In this document: piece by piece, positions 1 through 5,587 of the stretch
Layout of the letters: every line of letters starts with the position of its first letter
Position numbering within the stretch: position 1 is the stretch's first letter
NCBI GenBank assembly: GCA_029558435.1
Contig: JAKQEZ010000245.1
Coordinates: 1 to 5,587 of the forward strand
Direction: 5' to 3'
DNA: 5,587 bases
Source of the DNA: Bacteroidota bacterium
Lineage (GTDB): Bacteria; Bacteroidota; Bacteroidia; Flavobacteriales; Crocinitomicaceae
Position numbers and translations under genes: made by a program
Notes under the pieces: generated by a model
Told to the model about the DNA's origin: nothing
The model's database searches: none
Seen by the model: the letters and a program-made list of their open reading frames with translations, nothing else

Positions 1-144
1 GTTCTTTGAATTAGCTGAAATAGAGTTATCAATGATGTCTGCAATCGCTGTTTCTATATTGTAGCCAATAGCACGAAAAGTCTCAATCATTGATGAGGCT
101 TCTGGAATTGCTGACGTTGTTTGGTATTTTGAGTAATCAATCAT
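1..144 (-). CDS. GHKL/MORC-like ATPase, N-terminal fragment (cut by window edge)
   Basis: Only the first 48 codons are visible; the frame is open to base 1, so the gene continues to the left. The translation begins MIDYSKYQTTSAIPEASSMI and contains AIADIIDNSISA at residues 33-44. This is the N-box of the GHKL ATPase fold (Hsp90, MutL, MORC): an acidic residue (Asp36) four residues before the Mg/ATP-binding Asn40. MutL has Glu at the Asp36 position. The DNSI(S/D)A wording is closer to MORC-type proteins than to sensor kinases. The start codon overlaps the endonuclease stop by one base (TAATG), so translation is probably coupled. MORC/MutL-like ATPases are known companions of methylases and nucleases in bacterial restriction operons, so a role in DNA recognition or loop formation for restriction is inferred. 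Motifs G1 and G2 and the C-terminal half cannot be seen. Confidence 0.82.
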   Translation of the reverse strand, partial: MIDYSKYQTTSAIPEASSMIETFRAIGYNIETAIADIIDNSISANSKN

Positions 145-650
145 TAATATCCTATTATTAGAATTCCCTTAAGTGGGAGTTGTAATCTACCTGACGCATA
201 AAGAGTATCAAAAAAGGTTATTACATTTTGAAAATCAGGATTGCCTCTATAATCTTTTCTTACAGCAATAACTAAGTAATCCACCTCATACATCATACAA
301 GCTTGAAACAAATCTTTTAAAAATTGGTAATTTGTAACTGCTCTGCCTGCTTCAACTTCAATAACCGTTTTTGTTGCTGTATTATATCCGTCTGCGTCAA
401 AGTATTTTTCTAGTTTACCATTTTGTCCAAATAGCACTGGTACTTTGATTTTGTCACTTGACTTTTTACTCTTTTCAATTTGAAAATCTAATTTTTCTAA
501 GTTTGTTCTAACATTTTCCAATACCTCATTACTACCGTAGTTATGAACTTCAGAACTAATTAAGCTTTCATTTAATTCAAATACACCTAAAACATTTTGC
601 AGGTGTTCAGGTATTATTCTGCTTTTGGGAAAGAATTGCCAATTTATCAT
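144..650 (-). CDS. Putative PD-(D/E)XK-type restriction endonuclease
   Basis: A 168-residue protein lying directly after a DNA methyltransferase, overlapping it by 4 bases (ATGA) and the next ATPase gene by 1 base. The centre reads like the PD-(D/E)XK nuclease core: acidic residues Asp85/Asp87 in EKYFDADGYN, then a beta strand TVIEVEAGRA (residues 95-104) with Glu98 and Glu100, then the helix YQFLKDLFQACMM (108-120) and a hydrophobic strand VDYLVIAVR (123-131). In place of the usual E-x-K the strand has E-x-E, a variant known in BamHI. The C-terminus LKGILIIGY is a further strand. The N-terminal 60 residues are charged and helical and may serve specificity or dimerisation. The sequence shows the fold and context, but I cannot name a specificity. 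It could be a non-cutting accessory nuclease, although its position next to the methylase favours restriction. Confidence 0.75.
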   Translation of the reverse strand: MINWQFFPKSRIIPEHLQNVLGVFELNESLISSEVHNYGSNEVLENVRTNLEKLDFQIEKSKKSSDKIKVPVLFGQNGKLEKYFDADGYNTATKTVIEVEAGRAVTNYQFLKDLFQACMMYEVDYLVIAVRKDYRGNPDFQNVITFFDTLYASGRLQLPLKGILIIGY

Positions 651-1882
651 ATCATTTCCCTAATTTTTTCTGCAATTTTTTGAGCCATCAATGGAGGAAC
701 GGCATTGCCTATTTGTTTAAAGGCGGCTGTCCTACTTCCTTCAAAGAAATAATCATCAGGGAAAGATTGTATTCTTGCAGCTTCTCTTACACTTATTGAA
801 CGATTTTGTTTTTTATCTGGATGGATGTAATAATGTCCATCCATTGCTATATGAGCAACAACAGTGTGTGAAACACCCTTGCCATTTACAACTTGAAAAC
901 GATTTACAAAAGAATCTGTATTTGAATGTTTGATTAGTCTTTTTGGCAACTCAGCATAATTCAATCTTTTGCCATTGTTCCATTGGTCAATTGCAATTTG
1001 ATAGATTTCTAAATCATTATCATTATTGGGTCTTACAATATGTTGTGTTACAAAGTCTAAACCGTTTCTAATATTAGTTTGCTTTAAATATTCTGTTGTC
1101 GGCTTTGCATATTCAACTGCGTTTAGAGTTCCTTGTCCATTTTTTAATGGCTTCAAATCAGAAAACAAATCTTTTAAAATTTGAAAGTTATGTTCTGATG
1201 TCTCAAATTCGGGATACTTTAAGTTTAGCTCTTTCTTCCAGCCAATGATTATTACTCTTTTTCTGTCTTGTAATACTCCGAAATCTTTTGCGTTCAAATG
1301 ATTTTTTGGAGGAATAGCAACTTCATAACCAGCATTTCTAACAGCCTTGAAAATTTTACTTAAATACTCTCCGTTTTTTGCAGATAAAATACCCGGTACA
1401 TTCTCAAATACAAACATCTTTGGTTTGTACTTTTCTAGAAACTTAACGTAATGTTTATATAAATGATTTCTAGGGTCGCTTTCCATATCTTTTCTTGCAC
1501 GACCAACGACAGAATAAGCCTGGCAAGGCGGACCACCAATAATTAAATCAACTTTTTTTTCGTTCAATTCCTTGTCAATTGTCTTGAAAATTTCAGGCAA
1601 TGTGTTTTCTGAAATTTCTTTGTTTATGACTGAATTGATTAAATGTTCGGGAACATTTTTCCAAAGCTCTTCTTTGTTTTTAGTTTCTGATTTAAGATAA
1701 TCATTATAGATTCTGGTTTTCTTATTCTCTTTTAACCAGTGGTAAACTGTTCTGGTTTTAATAGTATCACAAGCATCTTTATTCATTTCTACGTGTGCAA
1801 TAGGTTTAAATCCAGCACGTATAAAACCTTCAGAAAGTCCTCCAGCACCAGCGAATAAATCTATATAGTTTAATTCCTTCAT
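647..1882 (-). CDS. DNA (cytosine-5)-methyltransferase
   Basis: A 411-residue C5-cytosine DNA methyltransferase, which transfers a methyl group from S-adenosylmethionine to a cytosine in a specific DNA site. The motifs are in canonical order. Motif I is YIDLFAGAGGLS (6-17, SAM binding) and motif II starts at VEMN (31). Motif IV is GGPPCQAYS (116-124) with catalytic Cys120, and motif VI is FVFENVPG (157-164) with Glu160. Motif VIII is QDRKRVIIIG (205-214), motif IX is around SVREAARIQSFPDDYFF (364-380), and motif X is QIGNAVPPLMAQ (390-401). The region 230-360 is the target recognition domain, so specificity is not readable. About 75 residues lie between motifs II and IV, longer than in minimal enzymes. 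The start is fixed by the short lead to motif I and by the 4-base ATGA overlap with the XRE gene; the end overlaps the endonuclease the same way. All catalytic residues are present, so it should be active. Confidence 0.96.
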   Translation of the reverse strand: MKELNYIDLFAGAGGLSEGFIRAGFKPIAHVEMNKDACDTIKTRTVYHWLKENKKTRIYNDYLKSETKNKEELWKNVPEHLINSVINKEISENTLPEIFKTIDKELNEKKVDLIIGGPPCQAYSVVGRARKDMESDPRNHLYKHYVKFLEKYKPKMFVFENVPGILSAKNGEYLSKIFKAVRNAGYEVAIPPKNHLNAKDFGVLQDRKRVIIIGWKKELNLKYPEFETSEHNFQILKDLFSDLKPLKNGQGTLNAVEYAKPTTEYLKQTNIRNGLDFVTQHIVRPNNDNDLEIYQIAIDQWNNGKRLNYAELPKRLIKHSNTDSFVNRFQVVNGKGVSHTVVAHIAMDGHYYIHPDKKQNRSISVREAARIQSFPDDYFFEGSRTAAFKQIGNAVPPLMAQKIAEKIREMI

Positions 1883-2145
1883 ATGTGATTTACAGATTTA
1901 TTGTTTTTAGTTTCTTTCAATTGAAATTCAAAATCCAAGAACCAAGAAAATTTGGATAAGTAGTCAATACTTAAATTGAATTTGCCATTTTCAATTTTTG
2001 AAATTGTTGAACGATTTACATTCATTATTTCCGCAAGTTCATCTTGGCTGTAACCTTTTTTCTCACGAATATTTTTAATGGCATCACCAATTTTAATACG
2101 GTAATCTCTAATGAATTTTTCTTTGTTTTCTAATTCCATTTCCAT
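1879..2145 (-). CDS. XRE-family HTH transcriptional regulator (controller-like)
   Basis: An 88-residue protein with one HTH_3/XRE helix-turn-helix. Residues 16-58 include the recognition region GYSQDELAEIMNVNRSTISK (31-50) followed by IENGKFNLSIDYLSKF. The remaining ~20 C-terminal residues are charged. Its size and position, just upstream of and overlapping the methylase start by 4 bases (ATGA), fit a restriction-modification controller (C) protein that times methylase and nuclease expression; the control role is inferred from context. I see no clear paired C-box palindrome in front of it, and its promoter is probably shared with the small gene 11 bases upstream. A second in-frame Met at residue 3 is an alternative start. 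No Shine-Dalgarno sequence is evident, as is usual in Bacteroidota. Confidence 0.88.
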   Translation of the reverse strand: MEMELENKEKFIRDYRIKIGDAIKNIREKKGYSQDELAEIMNVNRSTISKIENGKFNLSIDYLSKFSWFLDFEFQLKETKNNKSVNHI

Positions 2146-2156
2146 AAAACGGTTTA

Positions 2157-2555
2157 TTAATTCACGAAAAGAGTTCCGGTATGTTCTTTACCGCTTTCAT
2201 CTTCAATTGTCAGCAATACATTTGTTTCAACTCCTTTTACACCTTTAGTTAAGTCAAGCATAATTTTTTGTTCACTTACTTTTACAACCTTTCCAGTCGC
2301 TTGTGAATAGTCTGCTTTGTTGATTGTAACTTGGTGACCTACGAGGTCAGCTGTATCAACTTCAACAACTTCTAGGTCATCAAGTAAAACGGTATTTATG
2401 GGAGGGAAGGAAAGACCTGTGTTCAATGCTTTGATGTCGGCTCTTGGTCTTTTATCGTCTTCTTTGATTTCTAAAACAACATAAAGTTGGTCTGGATTTT
2501 CGTCTGGTAGCGGTGTATGAAACTTTGCTACTTGTCCAATTTTGTTTGGTCTCAT
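2157..2555 (-). CDS. Small conserved-looking protein of unknown function, first gene of the R-M operon
   Basis: A 132-residue acidic protein that I do not recognise. Codon-level coding looks genuine: the frame is clean, composition is balanced, and beta-strand-like patterns alternate throughout. The N-terminal part (IGQVAKFHTPLPDENPDQLYVVLEI, residues 6-30) resembles the opening of small beta-barrel domains that monitor a flow or level. A second barrel-like part starts at DLVGHQVTI (70-78) and includes ATGKVVKV (86-93). No signal peptide, membrane helix or catalytic motif is visible. It ends 11 bases before the XRE start on the same strand, and a good promoter element lies ~60 bases upstream of its start, so it is likely the leader gene of the operon. 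A role as an accessory, immunity or DNA-binding factor would be guesswork. Confidence 0.7.
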   Translation of the reverse strand: MRPNKIGQVAKFHTPLPDENPDQLYVVLEIKEDDKRPRADIKALNTGLSFPPINTVLLDDLEVVEVDTADLVGHQVTINKADYSQATGKVVKVSEQKIMLDLTKGVKGVETNVLLTIEDESGKEHTGTLFVN

Positions 2556-2610
2556 TTTTAATGTTGCAGAATTTATAGCGTTGCCCCCGCTGTTAAATTA
2601 TTTAATGTGT

Positions 2611-2618
2611 CAAATGTA
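2611..2618 (-). promoter_or_regulatory. Probable Bacteroidota -7 promoter element for the R-M operon
   Basis: On the minus strand this reads TACATTTG, an exact match to the Bacteroidota -7 consensus TAnnTTTG. It lies 56 bases upstream of the ATG at 2555, giving a leader of about 50 nt. The -33 element is weaker: the nearest upstream TTG with usable spacing (in ATTG) is 22 bases away, slightly longer than the usual ~19. It is the only good promoter-like match in front of the five-gene operon. Confidence 0.45.
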
Positions 2619-2711
2619 GTATTTATTGAAACAAAAGGTGCAATATATTGAACATTTCTTTTCAACATATTATTGTCAAGTTTTATAATTTGTTTATCAG
2701 CGTTGGCAAAA

Positions 2712-2773
2712 AATGGCTCTTTTGGTTTTGCGAAGGGTCGGCTTGTGTGTCGGGCAAAACCAAATGTGCCATT
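2712..2773. repeat. Inverted repeat, 20-nt arms, 22-nt loop
   Basis: The left arm 2712-2731 (AATGGCTCTTTTGGTTTTGC) pairs with the right arm 2754-2773 (GCAAAACCAAATGTGCCATT) at 18 of 20 positions. The loop contains AGGGTCGG. GTTGGCA just outside the left arm (2702-2708) equals the core heptamer at the end of the palindrome at 2971-3102. The inner stem does not share its conserved AAAAGTGGCGG block, and no matching partner core is visible on the other side. It may be an unrelated intergenic repeat, a degenerate recombination site or a transcription terminator without a clear T-run. Confidence 0.6.
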
Positions 2774-2852
2774 TGTGCGGCTGGCTAAAATTATTTTTAA
2801 AAAATGTGCGGTGGGGAAAAAATAAAAAACATAGGGTCGGTCAGCGTGTCGG
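2734..2852. repeat. Pair of diverged 20-nt direct repeats
   Basis: AGGGTCGGCTTGTGTGTCGG at 2734-2753 and AGGGTCGGTCAGCGTGTCGG at 2833-2852 agree at 16 of 20 positions, including the first eight and last seven bases. The first copy sits in the loop of the hairpin at 2712-2773; the second lies in plain sequence. Function unknown. Confidence 0.5.
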
Positions 2853-2970
2853 TTTAAATGCTGTCCGTTTGTAATATCGTTTCTATGTCTTTGGTCACCT
2901 GTCAAAATGGTTTACTTTTTTTTGTTCTTAGTCGTCTGTTTGTTATTGTGGTGTCGTCCTTTACACTTGC

Positions 2971-3102
2971 TGCCAACGGTTTCGGGCTTGGCGAAGGTGG
3001 CGATTTTCACCACAAATGTTGATGCGGAGAATCAAACTTTGATTAACCACAAATGTGTCTGCGGAGCACTGAACCGCCACTTTTGCCAAACCCGTGTTAG
3101 CA
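2971..3102 (-). repeat. attC-like imperfect palindrome A
   Basis: A 132-nt palindrome 19 bases after the glycosylase-like gene stop. On the minus strand it opens with TGCTAAC (3102-3096) and closes with GTTGGCA (2977-2971), which are complementary except for one G:T pair. Inside comes a conserved asymmetric loop (A on one side, AAACC on the other). A 10-bp helix follows, CGGGTTTGGC with GCCAAGCCCG, then the arm AAAAGTGGCGGTTCAGTG, whose GTGGCG pairs with CGCCAC of the other side. The tip holds two 20-nt direct repeats (3010-3029 and 3047-3066, 17 of 20 identical) around the perfect palindrome AATCAAACTTTGATT (3030-3044). Paired outer cores, unpaired spacer, inner arms and a variable tip are the parts of an integron attC. 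The heptamers depart from the textbook RYYYAAC/GTTRRRY, so this is a variant or a similar recombination site. Confidence 0.7.
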
Positions 3103-3875
3103 GTTCGGCCTTCTTTTTTCGTCATTCGTTTAGCCAATTAAATGCGTTTGAAAAATAATTGTCGGCATAATTTCTCCAGTCCTGTCTGTTGAAGCCAAAT
3201 TGAGCAAGTTGTCTTTGCGGTGAGCCTGGAGAGGGAATTGCTAATGCTGTCACTTGGAAATTGTCAACTATGAAAACCTTTGCAATTGGACTTGTTATTT
3301 GATTATTGTTTCCACCAAGTCCCGTAATAAAGTTGTCTTGAAAAGTGCAACCTGCTAAGTTGTCAACTTGTCCAAATGGTAAATTTCCTTGAAGGATAAT
3401 TTGTTTTTCAAGGTCTTTAAGAACACCTTTGGAAGTGCAAATAATTTTTCTTACTCCATTTTGAATAAGAGTTTGAATGCCTTGTCTATTATATGTTCTC
3501 CTAATTAATTTACTGTCTTCCGAACTAAATCCGTGTCTTTCACAAGAAGCGATTGTGTCTGAAACTGCAATTTGTCTTTGTGCTAAACTTGGTAAAATTA
3601 AGTTTGGGTTCGGTGGCAATAAAATTGTGTCGTCAATATTGTCACGGTATAAACCCCAAAGTCCGCTGTCAATGCTTCCATAGAAAAAACGGATTGTTCC
3701 TTCATTCTGTCTGTTTTGTTGTTTTAAAGGATTGTCTTGGTCGGTGCATTCGTATACAGGGAAGCTACCTAAAATCAGTTTGGTCGCTCCGTTAATTTGT
3801 CCTTGTTGCAGGTAAGGATGTATTTCTATTTCTCCTATTGGCATATTGTCTGGGTTTCTTTAGGCTGACTGCTAA
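2977..3875 (-). mobile_element. Putative integron-type gene cassette 2 (glycosylase-like cargo), 899 bp
   Basis: The boundaries are the inferred G^TT crossover points of two related palindromes. Read on the minus strand, the unit starts with TTAGCAGT just after G3876, has 25 bases to the ATG, a single 240-codon gene, 19 bases after the stop, and then the palindrome at 3102-2971. The leading boundary GTTAGCAGT is the exact reverse complement of ACTGCTAAC (3104-3096), the first core of its own trailing palindrome, 9 of 9. The core now adjoining it, GTTGGCAGC, matches less well. This matches the one-gene-plus-attC organisation of integron cassettes. No integrase is visible in the window, so mobility is inferred. 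Confidence 0.6.
3122..3844 (-). CDS. Uracil/hypoxanthine-DNA-glycosylase-superfamily-like protein, diverged
   Basis: A 240-residue protein, near the usual 160-240 of the superfamily, that I place in the UDG fold from ordered motifs. TKLILGSFPV (21-30) matches the first strand and loop, usually GSxPG. FFYGSIDSGLWGLY (53-66) corresponds to the YYAHPxNxFW segment. QIAVSDTIASCERHG (91-105) closely resembles the (A)LWDVLASCER.GS segment of DNA-deoxyinosine glycosylases. A predicted strand KIICTSKG (133-140) follows, and AIPSPGSPQR (202-211) is like the closing P-S-x-S-P DNA-binding loop. Several key positions differ: Gly to Val30 in motif one, and the Asn of PxNxFW appears to be Ser60. It may therefore have altered specificity or have lost glycosylase activity. 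The role, removing a deaminated or modified base, is inferred only. The gene is the sole cargo between two attC-like palindromes. No signal peptide, so cytoplasmic. Confidence 0.7.
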   Translation of the reverse strand: MPIGEIEIHPYLQQGQINGATKLILGSFPVYECTDQDNPLKQQNRQNEGTIRFFYGSIDSGLWGLYRDNIDDTILLPPNPNLILPSLAQRQIAVSDTIASCERHGFSSEDSKLIRRTYNRQGIQTLIQNGVRKIICTSKGVLKDLEKQIILQGNLPFGQVDNLAGCTFQDNFITGLGGNNNQITSPIAKVFIVDNFQVTALAIPSPGSPQRQLAQFGFNRQDWRNYADNYFSNAFNWLNE

Positions 3876-4002
3876 CGGTTTGCAGCTACCCGAAGGTGGC
3901 GATTTCGGAGCGATTCACGGTCAGTTAAGTACAAACGTTGATAGAAGCACAAAGCTTGAACTAACCACTGAACCGCCACTTTTGGGTAGGTGCTGTTATG
4001 CA
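3870..4002 (-). repeat. attC-like imperfect palindrome B
   Basis: A 133-nt palindrome that begins 3 bases beyond the stop of the secreted-protein gene; the extended core even includes that stop codon. On the minus strand it opens with TGCATAAC and closes with GTTAGCA (3876-3870). The internal loop is the same as in copy A (A versus AAACC), followed by a 10-bp helix GCACCTACCC pairing with GGGTAGCTGC at 9 of 10 positions. Then come the shared arms AAAAGTGGCGGTTCAGTG and AAATCGCCACCTTCG. The tip differs from copy A. It sits 25 bases upstream of the glycosylase-like start, and the two copies are 899 bases apart in the same orientation. The hairpins might also slow or terminate transcription between the genes. 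Confidence 0.7.
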
Positions 4003-4005
4003 CAG

Positions 4006-5361
4006 TTATTCTTTCACTATTTTGCTGCGTTGCAATACTTGTCCTTTGTTATCCGTAAGTGTCAAAAAGTAAATACCTGTCGGTTGGTCTGAAAGGTCAA
4101 GATGATTTACATTTTTTCTATCTGCAACAATTTGTCCGGTCACGTTTGTCAGTTGCGCGTTGGTCTGAATTGAAAAATTAATTTGGTTTTTTGTGGGGTT
4201 AGGAAATACTTTAATGCCATTTTTTAAGTTAAAATCATTTACCCCTGTAGTAGGTTCAATATACTTCATAACTGTAGCTTTGCCAGAATTTCCATAATCT
4301 TGATACACTACATAAGGTTCTCCACTATTACTGAATTTAAGAGTAACAAAATCAGACATTCCTGCTGAAAACCCCACATTCCCGACTGTCATCCAATTAT
4401 TACCATCAAATTTTTGAACTGTGACACTTTGTGAATTAACCCAATCTCTGTACGCGACATAAGGCTCTCCAGAATTGCTGATTGCAATTGAAGTGTAGAG
4501 CGCAGTTCCCGCTGAAAACCCTGCATTACCAACTGTCTCCCAAATGCTATCATTAAATTTCATTACTGTTGCTTTGCTCGAATTGCCAAAATCCATATAA
4601 GCAACATAAGGTCTTCCATCATTGCTGAACGCTAATGTAGCGTCATTAGCTACACCTGTGGAAAATCCAGGTGTTCCAACTGTCATCCAATTGGTCCCAT
4701 CAAATTTCTTGACGGTAACTTTACTTGAGTTCCCATCGTCAATATATGACAGATGAAGCACTCCATTATTATTGAATCCAAGAGATAAATTATTAGCGAG
4801 CCCATCCGAAAATCCTACATTTCCAACGTTTACCCAAGATGTTCCATCGAAAAATTTGACAGTTGTTTTGTTTGAATTAGCGCCATCTTTATATGATACA
4901 TATGGCGTGTTGCTACTGGAAGAAGCATTAAAGGCAAGAGACGTAGAAGCGGCTACACCATCTGAAAATCCAACATTTCCAACATTTATCCATGATGTTC
5001 CATTAAATTTCATAACAGTAGCCTTGTACGAATTACCTTCATCTTGATAAGCTACATAGGGTTCACCATTACTATTGAAAGCAAGTGAGACATAGTAAGC
5101 ATATCCTGCTGAAAATCCAGCATTTCCAACATTTACCCAAGATGTTCCATTAAATTTCATTACAGTAACTTTTCCAGAATTACCTGCATCTTGATATGCT
5201 ACATATGGCTCTTCATTGTTACTGAAGGCGAGAGTTGTGTACTCTACAACTCCTGCGGAAAACCCTGGTTGTCCAACATTTTGCCATTGGGAAAAAACAT
5301 TTGTGGTAACACCCACGGCTAAAAGTAGGCAAGTTGTCAATTTTAAAAGATTTTTTTTCAT
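4006..5361 (-). CDS. Secreted seven-repeat beta-propeller-like protein with type IX sorting domain
   Basis: A 451-residue exported protein. Residues 1-25 are a Sec signal peptide (MKKNLLKL, then a hydrophobic core, ending near VFSQ). Residues 26-371 are seven tandem repeats of 49 residues (the third has 52). Each begins W-x-(N/T)-V-G-x-x-G-F-S-x-G and continues with a strand like SLAF, then GEPYVAYQD, GNS-K and TVMKF-G-S. Seven such four-strand units suggest a seven-bladed propeller; this is inferred from the repeat pattern. Residues ~382-451 form a Por secretion (type IX) C-terminal sorting domain, with VFPNP (385-389), TGQIV, GIYFLTLTDNKG and the basic end SKIVKE. The protein should thus cross the outer membrane and be anchored or released. 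No enzyme motif is seen; binding or adhesion is plausible. The stop codon lies inside the core motif of the attC-like palindrome B, a tight gene-to-attC fit. Confidence 0.9.
   Translation of the reverse strand: MKKNLLKLTTCLLLAVGVTTNVFSQWQNVGQPGFSAGVVEYTTLAFSNNEEPYVAYQDAGNSGKVTVMKFNGTSWVNVGNAGFSAGYAYYVSLAFNSNGEPYVAYQDEGNSYKATVMKFNGTSWINVGNVGFSDGVAASTSLAFNASSSSNTPYVSYKDGANSNKTTVKFFDGTSWVNVGNVGFSDGLANNLSLGFNNNGVLHLSYIDDGNSSKVTVKKFDGTNWMTVGTPGFSTGVANDATLAFSNDGRPYVAYMDFGNSSKATVMKFNDSIWETVGNAGFSAGTALYTSIAISNSGEPYVAYRDWVNSQSVTVQKFDGNNWMTVGNVGFSAGMSDFVTLKFSNSGEPYVVYQDYGNSGKATVMKYIEPTTGVNDFNLKNGIKVFPNPTKNQINFSIQTNAQLTNVTGQIVADRKNVNHLDLSDQPTGIYFLTLTDNKGQVLQRSKIVKE
4249..5286 (-). repeat. Seven in-frame tandem repeats (~147 bp each) within the secreted protein gene
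   Basis: Repeat units on the minus strand are 5286-5140, 5139-4993, 4992-4837 (nine bases longer, within a Ser-rich loop), 4836-4690, 4689-4543, 4542-4396 and 4395-4249. Protein identity between units is high, for example VGNVGFSDG in units 3 and 4, while DNA identity is lower. This indicates duplication followed by drift rather than very recent expansion. Confidence 0.9.
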
Positions 5362-5436
5362 GTTACTTTGATTTTGTGTTTAAAAATTTGAATCTATGAG
5401 ATACCTTTATCTAAATGTGCTGATCGTTTAGGCGTT

Positions 5437-5451
5437 ATAATTGTGCATAAC
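5437..5451 (-). other. Core-site-like left boundary of cassette 1
   Basis: On the minus strand GTTATGCACAATTAT, the inverted copy (14 of 15) of the motif at 3995-4009. It has the G^TT crossover form of a cassette head. Unlike the other two boundaries it is not preceded by the conserved CGCCACCTTCG and AAACC block, so it is not the end of another palindrome of this family. It may be a junction with an attI-like primary site or a secondary target. Confidence 0.5.
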
Positions 5452-5459
5452 TCATAAAT

Positions 5460-5560
5460 ATGCGCAATAATACAATATTTATTTCAAATATCAACATAAT
5501 AAGCAAACAGGAATATTCTCTTGATAAACAGGCAATCAGATTAAAATCAATATTGCGCAT
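5460..5560. repeat. Perfect 10-bp inverted repeat with 81-nt spacing
   Basis: ATGCGCAATA at 5460-5469 and TATTGCGCAT at 5551-5560 are exact inverse copies, each holding the self-complementary core TGCGCA. The left copy overlaps the possible -7 element of the promoter at 5465-5495. Such paired sites upstream of a gene can be operators for a dimeric regulator bridging two sites, or accessory binding sites of a recombinase next to the boundary at 5451. The role is not determinable from the window. Confidence 0.5.
5465..5495 (-). promoter_or_regulatory. Possible Bacteroidota-type promoter upstream of cassette 1
   Basis: On the minus strand TTG (5494-5492) is followed after exactly 19 bases by TATTATTG (5472-5465), one mismatch from TAnnTTTG. 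Transcription would start near 5459, just outside the cassette boundary, and read the secreted-protein gene with a leader of about 100 nt. A promoter outside the first unit driving cargo inward is the arrangement of integron Pc promoters. The region is AT-rich, so chance matches are likely. Confidence 0.35.
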
Positions 5561-5587
5561 TTTGTATATTACCTTTTCAAAAATATT

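Follow-up and report, generated by a model that had tools for sequence, protein, structure and literature searches.

A probable head of an integron-like gene-cassette array, with an insert-less tyrosine recombinase linked to related arrays, in Bacteroidota

The Locus

The window analyzed here is the whole 5,587-nt stretch of contig JAKQEZ010000245.1 (assembly GCA_029558435.1) from a Bacteroidota bacterium of the family Crocinitomicaceae. All its annotated genes lie on the minus strand, two of them are followed by long palindromic sites (Table 1), and the whole is very probably the head of an integron-like gene-cassette array. A preliminary description, made from the letters of the window, had pointed to two palindromes in the same orientation (2971-3102 and 3870-4002, 899 apart), with shared inner arms, AAC and GTT ends and tightly fitting genes. 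The positions, the fit (gene start 3844 and stop 3122; stop of the other gene 4006) and the AAC and GTT ends, as read on the gene strand, were all confirmed. Between the two palindromes, 48 nt align with 77% identity, and 19 nt, CACTGAACCGCCACTTTTG, agree without exception. On the gene strand, the site running from 4005 to 3866 ends CTGTGCATAAC ... GTTAGCAGTCA, and the one from 3105 to 2966 ends AACTGCTAAC ... GTTGGCAGCAAG. A third boundary, additional to those claimed earlier, was found at 5451-5440 on the minus strand; it reads GTTATGCACA... and is complementary to the start of the upstream palindrome.

Table 1. Putative features of the window. Both attC-like sites are members of the alignment of covariance model R1 itself, and their bit scores are to be read accordingly.
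Feature	Position	Strand	Details
attI-like junction	5439..5465	-	GTT = 5451-5449
Cassette 1	3876..5450	-	gene 4006-5361, 451 aa, type IX secretion system (T9SS) sorting domain; both borders match
attC-like site, cassette 1	3866..4005	-	R'' CTGTGCATAAC, R' GTTAGCAGT; covariance model R1 130.9 bits
Cassette 2	2977..3875	-	899 bp; gene 3122-3844, 240 aa, predicted uracil/thymine-DNA-glycosylase fold
attC-like site, cassette 2	2966..3107	-	R'' AACTGCTAAC, R' GTTGGCAGC; covariance model R1 155.6 bits
Recurrent cassette leader with hairpin	2686..2790	-	within third unit
Third unit	1..2976	-	genes 2157-2555, helix-turn-helix (HTH) 1879-2145, C5-methyltransferase 647-1882, unknown 144-650

Arrays and Cassette Ends in Relatives

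The preliminary description read the two palindromes as the borders of an integron cassette and proposed a search of other Bacteroidota with a newly built covariance model. Such a search found arrays with single-gene spacing, and the cassette reading is supported by what relatives carry: tandem arrays of the same site in one orientation and spaced by single genes, cassette-specific matching ends, and further a conserved attI with an adjoining recombinase. Scattered copies and random breakpoints, which the preliminary description had named as refuting it, were looked for in the relatives and not found. The largest array lies on the 4.27-Mb chromosome CP058707.1 ('Bacteroidota bacterium isolate SSA2', hereafter G007), where an iterated profile found 344 sites in one orientation across 507,297 bp, with AAC at a constant position in 342 and GTT in 341 of them, and 13 antisense matches, every one overlapping a sense site. 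The covariance model found 347 sites there at E <= 0.01, and all 300 listed are on the minus strand. The sites are spaced by a median of 717 bp (312/343 gaps are shorter than 3 kb), 236 of the 308 cassettes measured have a frame of at least 60 aa, and the longest frame is in the sense direction in 250. At 90% identity, 311 cassettes form 175 families, the largest with 27, 24 and 17 copies. Among 132 loci with sites, some of which overlap, none is two-stranded once self-overlaps are removed.

When an integron cassette is free as a circle, its start comes to lie against the front of its attC, and for this reason the two pair. The bases past the GTT of one site were therefore compared with those preceding the AAC of the next. 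A complementary run of at least 6 was found in 243/309 adjacent pairs of CP058707.1, as against 12/339 for the two ends of the same site, 12/338 for next-but-one sites, 4/338 for reversed order and 440/20,000 (2.2%) for random pairs. In line with these results, 102 pairs from 118 other loci gave a mean run of 5.2, versus 1.1 at random and 1.3 within one site; this set used 252 of the 267 listed model matches, the 15 dropped being cut-off hits, low scorers and opposite-strand overlaps of better ones. Both cassettes of the window show a run of 6: GTTATGCACA at the junction is complementary to R'' of the next attC (cassette 1), and R' GTTAGCAGT to R'' ACTGCTAAC (cassette 2). The units have exact borders.

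Eight pairs of similar cassettes were found between different genomes, one genome being counted twice via overlapping loci. The best pair, between G007 and a Sphingobacteriaceae bin (G003), is 95.4% identical over 1,441 bp; the homology begins at (C)GTT and stops with the GTTG that follows the attC, the sequences on either side are unrelated, and the alignment identifies the cassette as one that was evidently exchanged as a unit, gene plus site. Among the remaining pairs, some extend their attC likeness past the border and one is alike in its right part only. These data also bear on a different explanation, namely that the palindromes are dispersed repeats (REP- or MITE-like) that spread by copying and lie between genes by chance. 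The strong conservation of the inner arms, the combination of arms of different types in some copies and the presence of one or a few sites only in some genomes would agree with it; uniform orientation within loci, ends that match between neighbors and not inside one site, and a unit that moved as gene plus site are unexpected of inserted repeats, and this explanation is therefore very improbable.

Architecture and Distribution of the Sites

Sites are about 135 nt long. Read on the gene strand, the left half consists of ...TAAC-A and an outer stem, CGGGTTTGGC or GCACCTACCC, followed by AAAAGTGGCGGTTCAGTG; after about 60 nt comes the right half, with AAATCGCCACCTTCG, the matching outer stem, AAACC or similar, and GTT. 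The two outer-stem types replace each other with both sides altered and pairing preserved, and the alignment of 79 sites shows double changes at 9 of 15 predicted pairs, so that both sides of the stem change together and pairing is kept. As single-stranded DNA, the window sites fold better than shuffled sequences, with z-scores of -2.97 and -1.92 on the gene strand and -2.51 and -4.72 on the opposite strand, the upper site folding best on the strand opposite the genes (-4.72). In silico, 56/79 sites, and 275/341 sites of the large array, fold better as the bottom strand. The integron consensus RYYYAAC / GTTRRRY is not strictly followed: the first base past GTT is R in 341/341 sites and the second in 189/341. 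As a separate observation, sites at L063, L092, L097, L107 and L118 are hybrids whose left and right stems belong to different types, an arrangement not expected from simple exchange at GTT.

The shared 19-mer, with one degenerate base, occurs in at least 118 genome stretches; by title, 116 of the 118 matches listed belong to Bacteroidota taxa, one to an Ignavibacteria bin and one to a Staskawiczbacteria bin. With a covariance model built from 79 sites and sites called at E <= 1e-4, at least one site was found in 121 of 296 sampled Bacteroidota genomes, an even draw from the phylum of Pedobacter glucosidilyticus; this is a low count, given strict filters and the scoring of at most 10 candidates per genome. 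The system is common in the phylum Bacteroidota. In the phylum of Staskawiczbacteria, sampled as a control, sites were found in 1/145 genomes, which is the seed genome itself; that bin (L031) carries one perfect site, the sole one in its genome, pointing to either transfer or a misplaced contig. Additionally, sites occur on plasmids of Chryseobacterium, Emticicia and Empedobacter and on two short viral contigs. One site (L004, 2665-2805) lies in a short phage-like contig and adjoins a DnaB-like helicase frame, and cassettes may accordingly land in phages too. A further candidate of the viral scan (L005) has the 19-mer and lacks the partner arm, and was set aside as a chance match; no clear site was found at L001, 12,690-12,840.

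The attI-Like Junction and the Other Parts of the Window

Among 18 recombinase loci with a downstream site, 17 have a GTT that matches the first attC 63-249 nt past the recombinase stop, and the consensus preceding this GTT is GCGCATATAAACAA. In the first set of loci, attI was found in G001, G002, G006 and G008, and in weaker form in G010. A weight matrix made from 20 other attI sites, with the window excluded (training scores 8.3-16.4), gives the window junction at 5451 a score of 13.5, which ranks first among 231 GTT, the runner-up scoring 3.4. The window looks like an array head on this evidence, with attI followed by cassette 1, cassette 2 and a third unit. The attC of the third unit is outside the window, and its expected partner end, CTGCCAAC, is absent from the window, so that one has here a cassette of more than 2.9 kb or else the point where the array ends.

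As for the cassette products, the protein of cassette 1 matches Por_Secre_tail over the cut-off. That of cassette 2 has zero Pfam or NCBIfam matches and 243 homologs, and 3 of the 120 listed are named G:T/U-mismatch repair DNA glycosylase. Its AlphaFold model has a pLDDT of 90.9, and a Foldseek search with this model returned uracil/thymine glycosylases throughout ranks 1-9 (best E 5.5e-4); as modeled, the product is a uracil/thymine-DNA-glycosylase-fold protein. DNA similar to the leader of the third unit occurs at 16 other loci, and the 507-kb array holds 11 sense and 0 antisense copies, at a median of 70 nt past the preceding GTT. This hairpin leader near cassette starts is perhaps a promoter or a structured RNA. 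An Rfam scan gave a single match at E <= 1, to Ocean-V RNA (27.4 bits, gathering score 75), off the palindromes, and comparison of phage records with the window gave merely 33-nt matches beneath the DNA methyltransferase.

The Linked Recombinase

A recombinase profile made from ten enzymes of array-bearing genomes was run over the 296 genomes, of which 94 match at E <= 1e-70. At 19 of the 30 top recombinase loci a site lies within 1.5 kb, on the same strand in 19/19 and downstream in 18/19. Sites were found in 35/36 genomes with a strong recombinase match versus 86/260 others, the strong-match cut having been chosen after the scores were seen; among the genomes with weaker matches, 34/58 have sites (p 0.0028). 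The array-bearing genomes were also searched with TIGR02249, the integron-integrase family; all 14 have matches and 0/14 exceed the cut-off. Where the contig is shared (G001, G002, G003, G006, G007 and G008), the best of these matches lie at the array heads. All ten array enzymes match both TIGR02249 and NF040815 ('site-specific tyrosine recombinase/integron integrase') of NCBIfam, that of L128 with 207.5 bits (cut-off 265) and 214.2 bits (cut-off 220), respectively.

An additional domain is described as the mark of integron integrases in the excerpts consulted of two papers (PMC9668308; PMC2426708). The segment from KGxKDR to HxLRHSxA measures 72-73 residues in 40/40 array-enzyme rows (a few of them from the same genome), 74-76 in XerA, 80 in XerD and 114 in the IntI of L204, and the other seven IntI rows show, by eye, the same extra stretch. 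Judged by this segment, the linked recombinase is without the IntI insert of about 41 residues and hence not IntI. The preliminary reading stands as to the cassettes, with two corrections: the window looks like an array head, and the linked integrase is not IntI. Among solved structures, those of XerA type come closest (220 and 210 bits), followed by IntI4 (188) and XerD (159), the IntI4 match being in two pieces that leave IntI4 residues 183-243 unaligned. In a tree, the 8 IntI rows group in a single clade (100/100), next to some of the insert-less enzymes; the branches are long and the tree carries a warning, and descent of IntI is not concluded from it. An AlphaFold model of the integrase, made from a shallow alignment, had a mean pLDDT of 54.9 and was not used.

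The same searches speak to the idea that these are ordinary integron cassettes on which a classical IntI acts in trans. True IntI is no rarity among Bacteroidota, since 84/296 genomes pass the TIGR02249 cut-off, and sites also occur in 23 of the 86 listed genomes with IntI matches. The idea is nevertheless unlikely: 0/14 array-bearing genomes have a match over the IntI cut-off, the 1.5 kb around true IntI loci contain a site in 0/8 cases, and sites are rarer in genomes with IntI matches than in the others (23/86 vs. 98/210, p 0.0017).

Proposed Mechanism and Points Against It

The units usually consist of a single gene and a folded site of about 135 nt. In the mechanism that we propose, a tyrosine recombinase encoded directly upstream on the same strand would cut at G|TT and join circular cassettes to the attI that follows its own stop codon (TATAAACAA|GTT), and attC x attC exchange would excise or shuffle cassettes, probably on the folded bottom strand. 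The linked recombinase is taken as the catalyst because of its linkage to the arrays; we infer a single-strand mechanism, and the recombinase gene of the window would lie past base 5587.

Several observations weigh against this reading. The 136 nt between the junction and base 5587 show no integrase C-terminus, although 15/17 relatives would have one within this distance, the recombinase of the other two ending at 236 and 249 nt. No attI was found at L184, the exception among the 18 loci above, or in G003, and in G007, which has the largest array, the sole attI candidate is odd, being 2,646 nt away and without the motif. Among the short cassettes of CP058707.1, the longest frame is antisense in 58/308, and 72/308 have no 60-aa frame. 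Additionally, 86/260 genomes without a strong recombinase match nevertheless carry sites, and at 11/30 recombinase loci there is no site within 1.5 kb. The last point would also agree with true cassettes being moved by another catalyst, for example XerC/XerD or a phage enzyme, with the linked gene a mere passenger. Against such a passenger stand the same-strand linkage in 19/19 cases and the attI consensus at 63-249 nt past the stop in 17/18, and we consider it quite unlikely, slightly more so than IntI acting in trans.

The system described here is integron-like in its working and stands outside the IntI-defined family, where it is not placed because the IntI domain was not found in its enzymes. 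Beyond this, it is conceivable, although we would sooner bet against it, that it represents a second integron lineage without IntI across Bacteroidota, that IntI descends, via domain gain, from a stock among the insert-less integrases, and that this is the system that released tet(X), 'xerD-tet(X)' being a broken array head.

Significance and the Case of tet(X)

No account of this system was found in the literature covered, which left subscription papers and preprints outside. Judging from excerpts of the respective papers, surveys based on IntI and its attC models found few or no integrons in Bacteroidetes (PMC9024848; PMC8352920): IntegronFinder 2.0 reports one complete Bacteroidetes integron, in Salinibacter ruber, and earlier only In0 (PMC9024848), and Bacteroidetes are not among 11 attC models (PMC8352920). 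Excerpts of other papers include Bacteroidota in lists of integron-bearing phyla (PMC8618304; PMC9668308) and record intI in the Bacteroidetes/Chlorobi group (PMC2426708). As an observation in its own right, true IntI, with 84/296 sampled genomes over the TIGR02249 cut-off, is far commoner than the cited parts of this literature suggest. Should the array head, attI and the insert-less integrase function in the way proposed, a major phylum contains a large gene-capture system that was overlooked, with an array of 344 sites; the IntI insert, held necessary for attC use, would be dispensable, IntI would have a testable sister or ancestor, and a resistance gene that Acinetobacter now carries would have a source.

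The last point concerns the Xer-tet(X) modules of Acinetobacter plasmids, in which a truncated enzyme of the insert-less family (56% identity over 187 aa) adjoins tet(X3). In the excerpts consulted of a study of xerD-tet(X)-res-ISCR2, ISCR2 is regarded as the likely vehicle, and no connection between the recombinase and an integron is made (PMC7530245). The module lies at 2450-4550 of Acinetobacter indicus pAI01 (NZ_CP044019.1; L212), and a tet(X) counterpart at 500-2780 of Empedobacter brevis pSE1-3 (NZ_CP043635.1; L006). The DNA of the two is identical at 100/100 bases past one GTT and at 29/100 ahead of it. In pSE1-3, an attC-like site lies ahead of the tet(X) GTT and a second one past tet(X); in pAI01, the following site is shortened. 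Since identity starts at the GTT and attC-like sites flank the gene in pSE1-3, it appears that tet(X) moved in the form of a cassette. Counter to this, its two ends mismatch each other, and the pAI01 junction, with a score of -1.2, departs from the attI motif. pSE1-3 also carries a third site, at 9168-9371, behind an ABC-F gene, and a unit past tet(X) (2027-2780) that ends GCGTACAAC, matching its own start GTTGTACGC, and is not followed by a full site.

Comparison With Known Systems

As in IntI integrons, both the mobile classes and the sedentary chromosomal ones, cassettes here form one-way arrays, the attC is folded and bounded by AAC and GTT, each cassette has a start that pairs with its attC, attI adjoins the integrase, and the bottom strand folds better. 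In archaeal integrons, too, attI is directly downstream of intI, according to the excerpts of PMC9668308. Unlike IntI, the integrase of the present system is without the insert of about 41 residues and stays under the TIGR02249 cut-off in 14/14 genomes. It is, additionally, transcribed in the direction of the cassettes; the sites are long with conserved inner arms, and the matching ends reach 6-7 nt past GTT.

XerA, XerC and XerD are the other family with which the enzyme invites comparison. The nearest structures are XerA-type, the segment of 72-73 residues is close to the 74-80 of these enzymes, and the source names say XerD. Unlike XerA/XerC/XerD, however, the array enzymes have an N-terminal extension of about 70 residues or more and are linked to cassette arrays and attI.
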